A stretch of 64,000 bases of DNA from assembly GCA_021731285.1 (NCBI GenBank), contig JAKFXR010000024.1:1-64000 (forward strand), read 5' to 3'. The notes below the pieces were generated by a model. That model saw only the letters and a program-made list of their open reading frames with translations, was not told where the DNA came from and searched no databases. The position numbers and the translations under genes were made by a program. This DNA comes from Polaromonas sp. Lineage in GTDB: Bacteria > Pseudomonadota > Gammaproteobacteria > Burkholderiales > Burkholderiaceae_C. Shown here one piece after another: positions 17,203 through 61,041 of the stretch; the first letter of the stretch is position 1, and every line of letters starts with the position of its first letter.

Positions 17203-17429
17203 AAAAACTCCTGTCTTGGATGAGATCACGCTGGCCGGAACCGGCGCTCTATCCCGTATTGTCACTGCGTGGGCAGGCCCTGCGGATTTGCAGGGCAAAG
17301 GCAAGGGCGCGTCCGCTAAAATTGCCGGTTGACCGTGGTGACTGCCTGATCCAGACAATGCGCTTGTTGGCGCGACCGGACAGGCTTGGCGCCCCGCCCC
17401 CTTTCCTATCCAAATTTCCTTTCCCATTC

Positions 17430-18203
17430 ATGAGTGCCTTCAACGAAGAAACCGTCCTGTCCGTGCATCACTGGACCGACCGCCTGTTTACCTTCACCAC
17501 CACCCGCGACACCTCGCTGCGCTTCAGCAACGGCCATTTCACGATGATAGGGCTGCGTGTCAATGACAAGCCGCTGCTGCGCGCCTACAGCATCGTCAGC
17601 CCCAACCATGAAGAGCACCTGGAGTTTCTGAGCATCAAGGTGGCAGACGGGCCGCTGACTTCCCGCCTGCAGCACATCAAGGTGGGCGACAAGATCATCG
17701 TCGGACGCAAGCCGACCGGGACCCTGGTCATTGACTACCTGCTCCCCGGCAAGCGGCTGTACCTGCTGTCGACGGGCACCGGCCTGGCGCCGTTCATGAG
17801 CATCATCCGGGACCCGGCCACCTATGAGCAGTTTGAGCAGATCGTGCTGGTGCACGGCGTGCGCCAGACCGACGAGCTGGCCTACCATGACCTGGTCGTC
17901 GACCACCTGCCCCAGCACGAGTTTCTTGGCGAAATGGTCGCCAAACAGCTTCTTTACTACCCCACCGTCACCCGCGAGAGTTACCGCAACATGGGTCGGG
18001 TGACCGATCTGATTGAAAACGGCAAGATGCTGGCCGACCTGAAACTTCCGTCACTGGACCCGGCCAACGACCGCGTGATGATTTGCGGCAGCCCGGGCAT
18101 GCTCAAGGATTTGAAGCATTTGCTGGAGACGCGGGGTTTCAAGGAAGGCAATACCTCCAAGCCCGGTGACTTCGTCATTGAGCGTGCATTCGCCGAGCAG
18201 TAG
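17430..18203 (+). CDS. fpr: Ferredoxin-NADP reductase
   Basis: RAYSIVSPNHEEHLEFLSIKV, LLSTGTGLAPFMSIIRDP, MICGSPGMLKDLKHLLETRGFKEG, C-terminal FVIERAFAEQ. Confidence 0.95.
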   Translation: MSAFNEETVLSVHHWTDRLFTFTTTRDTSLRFSNGHFTMIGLRVNDKPLLRAYSIVSPNHEEHLEFLSIKVADGPLTSRLQHIKVGDKIIVGRKPTGTLVIDYLLPGKRLYLLSTGTGLAPFMSIIRDPATYEQFEQIVLVHGVRQTDELAYHDLVVDHLPQHEFLGEMVAKQLLYYPTVTRESYRNMGRVTDLIENGKMLADLKLPSLDPANDRVMICGSPGMLKDLKHLLETRGFKEGNTSKPGDFVIERAFAEQ

Positions 18204-18207
18204 ATGG

Positions 18208-18303
18208 CCCCCACGCTTGTCACTGCGTGTACTGCGCTGCCCCCCGAGGGGGCCGCTGCGCCTGCGGGCTGGCAAAGCCAGACCCGCGGCCCCTGCTGGG
18301 CTG
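18208..18303 (+). repeat. Intergenic structured repeat, copy 1 (family A)
   Basis: CCCCCACGCTTGTCACTGCGTGTACTGCGCTGCCCCCCGAGGGGGCCGCTGCGCCTGCGGGCTGGCAAAGCCAGACCCGC; near-identical to 60945-61041. Confidence 0.85.
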
Positions 18304-59867: not shown

Positions 59868-59915
59868 ATATGTACAGCAACAACCACATCGACCTGTCCC
59901 AGACCAGCGGCCGCA

Positions 59916-59996
59916 GTGGAACCGGCTCCGCCGGGCCACATGCGGCGCCCCCTGCCAGGGGGGAAGGTGCTACACGAAGTGAGCATCCGACGGGGG
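59916..59996 (-). repeat. Intergenic structured repeat, copy 2, inverted and diverged (family A)
   Basis: Reverse complement CCCCCGTCGGATGCTCACTTCGTGTAGCACC...GGCGCCGCATGTGGCCCGGCGGAGCCGGTTCCAC aligns with the copy at 60945. Confidence 0.75.
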
Positions 59997-59997
59997 T

Positions 59998-60936
59998 ATG
60001 CCAATGCTAGGCCCGGTACTGGAAACCATCATCGGCGGCCTGATGTCGGGCATGCTGTATTCACTGGTGGCGCTGGGCTTTGTGCTGATCTACAAGGCGT
60101 CCGGCGTCTTCAATTTCGCGCAGGGAGCCATGGTGCTTTTTGCGGCGCTGGCGATGGCCAGGTTTTCAGAGTGGATTCCGCAATGGACAGGCCTGGAAAA
60201 CAAGTTCCTGAACAATGCCCTTGCATTCGTGATTGCGCTGGCGATCATGATCGTGGTGGCCTGGCTGATCGAAAAACTGGTGCTCAGCAAGCTGGTGAAC
60301 CAGGAAGGCGTTGCCCTGCTGATGGCCACGCTGGGCATTTCATACTTTCTCGACGGTTTTGGGCAAACGATTTTCGGATCGAACATCTACAAGATTGACG
60401 TGGGCATGCCCAAGGATCCGATGTTTCTGCTTGACAGCGTCTTCCCGGGGGGCTTGCTGGTCAACCAGGAAGACCTGGTCGCCGCATTGATTGCAACCGC
60501 GCTGGTGGGCGTGCTGGCCGCCTTCTTTCAATACACCAGCACAGGACGCGCCCTGCGTGCGGTGGCAGACGACCACCAGGCCGCGCAGTCCATCGGCATT
60601 CCCCTCAACCGCATCTGGGTCATTGTCTGGAGTGTCGCGGGTTTTGCTGCGCTGGTGGCCGGCATCATCTGGGGCAGCAAACTGGGCGTGCAGTTTTCAC
60701 TTTCGGTGCTGGCGCTCAAGGCATTGCCGCTGGTGATCCTGGGAGGCCTGACCTCCGTGCCCGGTGCGATCGTGGGCGGATTGATTCTGGGTGTGGGCGA
60801 AAAACTCGCCGAAGTTTTTCTGGGCCCACACGTCGGCGGCGGCATAGAAATCTGGTTTGCCTATGTGCTGGCCTTGTGCGTCCTGCTGGTGAGACCCCAG
60901 GGTCTGTTCGGCGAGAAGATCATCGATCGTGTCTAG
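59998..60936 (+). CDS. livH: LIV/HAAT-type ABC permease (LivH-like)
   Basis: LETIIGGLMSGMLYSLVALGFVLIYKASGVFNFAQGAMVLFAALAMARF. Confidence 0.94.
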   Translation: MPMLGPVLETIIGGLMSGMLYSLVALGFVLIYKASGVFNFAQGAMVLFAALAMARFSEWIPQWTGLENKFLNNALAFVIALAIMIVVAWLIEKLVLSKLVNQEGVALLMATLGISYFLDGFGQTIFGSNIYKIDVGMPKDPMFLLDSVFPGGLLVNQEDLVAALIATALVGVLAAFFQYTSTGRALRAVADDHQAAQSIGIPLNRIWVIVWSVAGFAALVAGIIWGSKLGVQFSLSVLALKALPLVILGGLTSVPGAIVGGLILGVGEKLAEVFLGPHVGGGIEIWFAYVLALCVLLVRPQGLFGEKIIDRV

Positions 60937-60944
60937 ATATGAAG

Positions 60945-61041
60945 CCCCCACGCTTGTCACTTCGTGTACTGCGCTGCCCCCCGAGGGGGCCGCTGCGCCT
61001 GCGGCCCGGCAAAGCCGGTTCCGCGGCCCCCGCTGAACCGG
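60945..61041 (+). repeat. Intergenic structured repeat, copy 3 (family A)
   Basis: CCCCCACGCTTGTCACTTCGTGTACTGCGCTGCCCCCCGAGGGGGCCGCTGCGCCTGCGGCCCGGCAAAGCCGGTTCCGC; near-identical to 18208-18303 over the first ~60 bp. Confidence 0.85.

Follow-up and report, generated by a model that had tools for sequence, protein, structure and literature searches.

The intergenic repeat found in three copies in the window, which is the whole 64,000-nucleotide stretch of Polaromonas sp. DNA that was analysed, is a structured mosaic element of about 95 bp. It occurs in at least 150 copies in this 4.0 Mb genome, as counted by profile search, and is usually set directly behind stop codons on the sense strand. 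What persists among its copies is the pairing, not the sequence. Judging from structure and placement, we put at about one half the probability that the repeat is an interspersed, non-coding, non-autonomous element with a REP-like action at mRNA 3' ends and intercistronic ends, and similarly for an RNA-level effect on the host.

Copies in the window and their flanking genes

A covariance model (R1) was trained on 41 of the genome's copies, including window copies 1 and 3 and excluding copy 2. With this model, all three copies claimed in the initial annotation were recovered as real (E values of 6e-18, 6e-18, and 3e-9 for copies 1, 3, and 2), and the scan of the window gave no fourth copy, the next-best R1 match (E 0.74) being noise. 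The features are as follows.

17220..18203, + strand: FAD/NAD-binding oxidoreductase gene upstream of copy 1, start uncertain (Pfam PF00175, PF00970)
18207..18302, + strand: copy 1, full repeat (R1, 108.3 bits, E 6.3e-18)
18215..18237, + strand: hairpin A of copy 1, loop around ACTGCGTGT (alignment column mapping)
18239..18253, + strand: hairpin B of copy 1, GCCCCC-CGA-GGGGGC
18260..18290, + strand: hairpin C of copy 1, GCC-T-GCGG-G-CTGGC-AAA-GCCAG-AC-CCGC-GGC
59901..59996, - strand: copy 2, diverged subtype (R1, 60 bits, E 3.4e-9)
59911..59945, - strand: hairpin C of copy 2, outer stem CCGCA/TGCGG plus GTGG/CCAC
59998..60936, + strand: permease gene for branched-chain amino acids, flanked by copies 2 and 3; stop TAG 60934-60936 (Pfam PF02653)
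60944..61039, + strand: copy 3, full repeat (R1, 108.6 bits, E 5.6e-18)
60952..60974, + strand: hairpin A of copy 3
60976..60990, + strand: hairpin B of copy 3
60997..61027, + strand: hairpin C of copy 3

Copy 1 starts 3 nt past the TAG (18201-18203) of the oxidoreductase gene, and copy 3 starts 7 nt past the TAG of the upstream permease gene, with the next permease gene about 55 nt further on; the closeness of both copies to a TAG had been pointed out initially. Copies 2 and 3 are contained in one branched-chain amino-acid ABC transporter operon, in which copy 2 is antisense to the downstream permease gene and 1 nt away from its predicted start codon. The stems read as the initial annotation had them: the inner stem is CTGGC-AAA-GCCAG in copy 1, CCGGC-GGA-GCCGG in copy 2, and CCGGC-AAA-GCCGG in copy 3, the outer stem changes from GCGG/CCGC to GTGG/CCAC in copy 2, and the separate GCCCCC-CGA-GGGGGC hairpin is present in copies 1 and 3.

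Architecture and modular composition

The repeat (about 80-100 bp across copies) consists of an unpaired C-tract followed by three hairpins, A, B, and C, with the consensus GCCCCCACGCTTGTCACTTCGTGTACTGCGCTGCCCCCCGAGGGGGCCGCTGCGCCTGCGGCCCGGCAAAGCCGGTTCCGCGGCCCCnGCTTGA, the ends of which are GCCCCCACG...GGCCCCnGCTTGA. The first G marks an abrupt onset of conservation, which tapers off past GCTTGA. Hairpin A, which had been missed initially, has its loop in ACTTCGTGT and shows the strongest covariation within the genome. The consensus of hairpin B is CCCCC-CGA-GGGGG and that of hairpin C is GCC-T-GCGG-N-CCGGC-AAA-GCCGG-NN-CCGC-GGC.

Lower-scoring copies are modular, in that the A+B half is fused to another 3' half (GGGGGCTGGCCTTGCTTGGGGCGGCCCGGCG) or the C half carries a different 5' half (CCAAACCTGC-TCAA-GCAGGTTTGG). 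Copy 2 is a member of a diverged subtype that starts with ACCCCCGTCC or CCCCCGTCGG. An alternative 5' half, CTGTCCAAACCTGC-TCAA-GCAGGTTTGGAGCCGCAGGCTCCAGCCCC, precedes the same 3' hairpin at C45:26003, C3:32026, C80:8547, C97:5234, C41:15101, C1:69981, and others, and an analogous one, GGAACAGTCCTCAAGGACTGTTCC, was seen in Bordetella-genus genomes (L186, L199, L200). Conversely, the same 5' half is continued by an alternative 3' half, with CCTTGGGGCGGCCCGGCGG enclosed by an outer stem that varies freely, at C129:7006, C131:1771, C62:18500, and C54:14730, and this 3' half was also observed at L131, L141, L143, L146, and L149.

At two loci only, both of one genus (L130 and L144), the first and second C-tracts are both CCTCCC and the G-tract is GGAGG, as if changed jointly, and from such a triple covariation two mutually exclusive pairings would follow. 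An alternative outer stem is conceivable in which the G-tract pairs with the 3' C-tract (GGGGCC/GGCCCC). A peptide-coding role was considered and rejected: the GC content keeps frames open, but single-base C insertions or deletions between copies disrupt every frame.

Covariation in the hairpins

Compensation could hardly be argued from three copies. Among the 41 aligned copies of this genome, 27 have C-G and 13 have G-C at pair 10/33, 26 have A-T and 11 have G-C at pair 19/25, and 33 have C-G and 7 have T-A at the inner-stem pair 69/79, with one break. In total, 37 cells with two-sided changes were found within the genome compared with 9.7 in shuffles, and partners slid out of register performed far more poorly. 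Across about 30 genera, double changes occur at 10 of the 15 pairs of hairpin C, for which the covariation score is 0.358, compared with 0.104 after shuffling (equalled in 0 of 500 shuffles) and at most 0.11 in slid controls; the same 3' hairpin shows 107 two-sided cells, compared with 29 in controls. The outermost three pairs of hairpin C are complementary as well (AACGCC/GGCGTT, ACATCC/GGATGT, TTTGGC/GCCAAA, AAAGTC/GACTTT), and because these three pairs are absent from the search model, their complementarity was not selected by the search. For hairpin A across genera, the halves of one copy pair at -6.1 kcal/mol, compared with -4.4 and at best -5.0 kcal/mol for swapped halves.

G-U pairs are nearly absent, with 4 one-sided cells against the 107 two-sided cells in hairpin C across genera. 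G-U is normally tolerated in RNA helices, and its scarcity here means that pairing at the DNA level, or correction of one arm by a template switch, fits at least as well as selection on RNA. Template switching between the arms of a palindrome yields double changes in a single step (PMC8794818). Double changes lie far above both shuffled and slid controls, within the genome and across genera; the initial proposal of selection on pairing and not only copying is partly supported, but template switching would explain these changes too. The scarcity of G-U provides a handle on whether RNA selection or DNA template switching keeps the palindromes.

Placement relative to stop codons

The position of the copies relative to stop codons, a mapping also proposed initially, was determined for 124 copies of this genome with genes called by a simple, rough codon-bias caller. 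Of these, 113 are intergenic with both neighbours known, and 69 of the 113 have their 5' end at -5 to +15 nt from a same-strand stop. Placing a random point with a random orientation in the same gaps gives an expectation of 19.4 and a maximum of 36 in 200,000 simulations. When only gaps of at least 100 nt are counted, 18 of 49 copies are anchored compared with 2.7 expected. Between co-directional genes, 68 copies are sense and 14 are antisense (p=1e-9), and convergent gene pairs hold 26 copies while divergent pairs hold 5. The distance from the end of the stop to the element ranges from -1 to +9 nt in the anchored copies. The same placement was found outside this genome, with 23 of 28 copies in other genera and 29 of 31 copies in Bordetella/Achromobacter lying behind the stop of a frame 100 or more codons long, compared with 4% of random positions in either case. 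The stop-codon rule is therefore general, far beyond the two copies in which it was first noticed. Since sense placement at 0-15 nt after the stop holds for more than 80% of the sampled copies in two distant groups, the rule offers a simple experiment on termination and mRNA 3' ends.

Stop trinucleotides are also enriched at non-anchored copies (22 of 38, against a background of 21%). Several of these copies probably mark gene ends overlooked by the rough caller, so that targeting of a motif and linkage to translation are not separated by this enrichment. The stop-codon rule could also stem from a preference for certain targets on the part of some unknown machinery for transposition. In seven anchored copies the TAG takes its final G from the first position of the element, and TAG accounts for 26 of 70 anchored stops and 21 of 92 other stops at the same loci (p=0.07).

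Copy number and distribution

With 13 candidates scored per genome, matches were found family-wide in at least 189 of 301 genomes and at least 96 of 135 genera. Among plasmid records, only three Variovorax replicons carry the element; phage records give no match, and a phage origin was rejected. Bordetella-genus genomes were reached by means of an insertion-sequence pattern from Bordetella. The R1 model matched three copies in Bordetella genomosp. 2 and 13 in Achromobacter veterisilvae. A second model (R2), made from Bordetella-genus copies, matched 2-39 copies per genome in seven of nine Bordetella-genus genomes and 35 in Achromobacter. The Bordetella-genus form is 81-86 bp long and has the same three hairpins (ACCCCCGAAGCGCTGCGCGCTTCCCCCTCAAGGGGGCGACGCTGGCGGACCGGCAAAGCCGGCTCCGCGGCGTCCCCG). 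An Rfam scan of the window gave 0 matches above the gathering threshold, with chance-level scores only for the element itself, and a literature search with the element's own letters returned nothing relevant. A Y1 (RAYT-like) transposase gene (L031/L032; G000:C3:8595-8921) was also observed, which is widespread in the family, usually with one gene per genome and a frame of about 230-300 codons.

Relation to known repeats

By size, distribution, tandem arrangement, and place, the repeat appears, very likely, to be a Burkholderiaceae-wide relative of BRE/Bor-1, a likeness drawn from description, architecture, and size and not from published BRE letters. In the available text of PMC3110155 (Hot et al. 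2011), BREs are GC-rich intergenic repeats of about 90 bp (75-91 bp), sometimes in tandem and variable in copy number, without an assigned function, which occur in Bordetella and in Comamonadaceae (Polaromonas, Delftia, Acidovorax, Rhodoferax). The present repeat is likewise intergenic, of comparable length (about 95 bp, or the shorter Bordetella-genus form), found in both groups, and present in tandem (two copies at L107 and L253, series in G001 and G037). It differs in abundance, as BREs reach at most 29 copies per genome in that text, compared with the at least 150 copies here. The stop and sense rule, the exchange of modules, and the covariation are described here and are absent from the available BRE account. 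In classical bordetellae a BRE lies beside lexA. No copy was found at lexA in the nine Bordetella-genus genomes, and according to the same text the positions of BREs show little conservation from one species to another.

The Bor repeats are stem-loop repeats of Bordetella near coding regions that were compared with E. coli REP (PMC1590033), and the Bor-1 models, of 93 and 117 bp, have 128-196 matches that are intergenic and predicted to be structured (PMC2267715). Bor and Bor-1 were reported from Bordetella only, and their identity with the present repeat is suggested by size, place, and abundance. Publications from 2006-2011 onward report repeats of the BRE/Bor type in Bordetella and Comamonadaceae and assign them no function. 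The initial description of the sequence as common in Comamonadaceae and without assigned function was roughly right, but very similar repeats had already been published as Bor/Bor-1 (PMC1590033, PMC2267715) and as BRE (PMC3110155).

E. coli REP/BIME sequences are alike in being extragenic, high-copy, transcribed palindromes that often lie within 15 nt of a stop, and roles in mRNA stability and ribosome stalling have been proposed for them (PMC12306157, PMC1590033). REPs are single hairpins of 20-40 bp with GTAG/CGTC tags (PMC3733652). They are linked to RAYTs, whereas the present repeat is a tagless three-hairpin unit with no RAYT link and a larger stop-anchored share. It would thus work like a REP and yet, by the tests of tag, length, and RAYT, not be one.

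ERIC and NEMIS (Correia) elements are MITE-like and carry long inverted repeats, whereas the consensus ends of the present repeat are non-complementary and provide none of the terminal inverted repeats by which MITEs are recognized. Insertion polymorphism between relatives was seen, at the oxidoreductase 3' end and in the gaps of the ABC operon. ERIC and NEMIS are intergenic, about 100 bp long, cotranscribed, and able to fold as RNA hairpins, according to the summary in PMC1590033.

Possible function and alternative explanations

Because the repeat is placed in the sense orientation directly after stops, its transcription together with the upstream gene is expected, and we infer that in Polaromonas sp. 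it forms the 3' end or an intercistronic part of the mRNA. By analogy with REP, a structure about 10-18 nt past the stop would stand at the edge of the terminating ribosome and would meet 3' exonucleases. The hairpins may block 3'-to-5' decay, slow the last ribosome, or both, which would set the relative output of the flanking genes; alternatively, a stable small RNA might be released. A reference cited in PMC12306157 reports that E. coli REPs lying no more than 15 nt from a stop stall ribosomes and lead to mRNA cleavage, and PMC1590033 proposes that Bor RNA stabilises the mRNA with which it is cotranscribed. BprJ of B. pertussis, an RNA of 70-80 nt detected by Northern blot, coincides with a BRE (PMC3110155). 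As there are several BRE copies, the probe may have detected any of them. The folding energy is only modestly better than that of shuffled sequences (z of -1.2 to -2.2), which we counted against an RNA-level explanation. More speculatively, and in our judgement doubtfully, the repeat would represent a family-wide class of structured 3' ends that tunes termination, recycling, or re-initiation together with mRNA decay at hundreds of genes per genome, with the two C-tracts competing for the one G-tract as a two-state switch.

The main rival to a REP-like action is a selfish miniature mobile DNA with ORF-edge targeting, inserted by a single-strand-specific transposase or similar at stop-like trinucleotides or ORF edges, whose hairpins would serve mobility with no gain for the host; we regard it as possible, if not favoured. 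It would account for the present, absent, tandem, and reversed copies in equivalent gaps of congeners, for the recombination of 5' and 3' halves as modules, for the scarce G-U, which suggests pairing at the DNA level, and for stop trinucleotides at non-anchored copies. The bias of 68:14 for the sense strand and the frame-true stops are nevertheless unexpected from blind insertion, terminal inverted repeats are absent from the consensus, no mobiliser was found, the sole Y1 transposase gene of this genome has no flanking copy, and 38 element-bearing genomes are without any Y1_Tnp. The paired changes could also result from template switching between palindrome arms combined with gene conversion between copies, and not from selection, an account that is compatible with either a REP-like or a selfish element and that we hold to be rather unlikely. 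The process is documented (PMC8794818, PMC7202029) and agrees with the predominance of two-sided over one-sided cells in the 3' hairpin. However, a conserved tip, a fixed one-base bulge, and rules of position and orientation that hold over about 30 genera imply that the unit is preserved, and mutation bias alone would fail to maintain three separate hairpins.

Mobilisation as a REP/REPIN by a RAYT transposase is very unlikely, and we rejected it for lack of a RAYT link. The palindromes are indeed extragenic and lie 3' of genes, this genome has a single Y1_Tnp gene, 226 of 301 family genomes carry Y1_Tnp, and its presence is weakly associated with that of the element (odds ratio 1.96, p=0.014, uncorrected for phylogeny). 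However, the consensus has no terminal GTAG/CGTC tag, the loci examined around the single Y1_Tnp, 7.3 kb in all, hold no copy, and genomes with 8-13 scored copies have zero Y1_Tnp. A known Rfam RNA was rejected as well, there being no Rfam match. Stable hairpins at gene 3' ends and the preference for convergent over divergent pairs (26 versus 5 copies) would fit a Rho-independent terminator, a reading that is highly improbable and was rejected on the missing T-run, which follows hairpin C in just 3 of 111 copies (antisense, 11 of 111). The site scan at copy 3 likewise gave nothing terminator-like, and 38 of the 68 co-directional copies have the next gene within 60 nt, including inside the ABC transporter operon.

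Gain and loss in relatives

At the oxidoreductase 3' end, which is the site of copy 1, L106 and L108 have one element and L107 has two in tandem, while L111 and L116-L118 have remnants of the 5' end and L109, L110, and L112-L115 have none. Gap 2 of the ABC operon, the site of copy 3, measures 10-30 nt when empty and about 130-160 nt with one element, and it is larger with tandem copies (L253) or mixed modules (L247, L256). In gap 1, the site of copy 2, the element is forward, reversed, or absent among congeners. Tandem series with copies about 104 bp apart were seen in G001 and G037. TRF reported nothing on the tandem locus L253, where the two copies were seen directly. The empty, filled, tandem, and reversed gaps indicate that the repeat moves or gets replaced at the species scale and is tolerated within operons.

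Unrelated hairpin repeats were observed in gap 2 of L234, L241, L255, and L275 and of L242, L244, L248, and L266, namely TTCGCCGGATACGGCGAAGGATTATTTTTCAG... and GAGACTTTGCGGGACAGACC...CTGTCC, in tandem, and gap 2 looks as if it were a slot for structured repeats. A GGGG or AGGGGTGAGG sequence, the end of a reversed copy, immediately precedes the permease start codon at 59990-60006 of the window and in gap 1 of L228-L248; such copies may provide the Shine-Dalgarno sequence of the permease gene.
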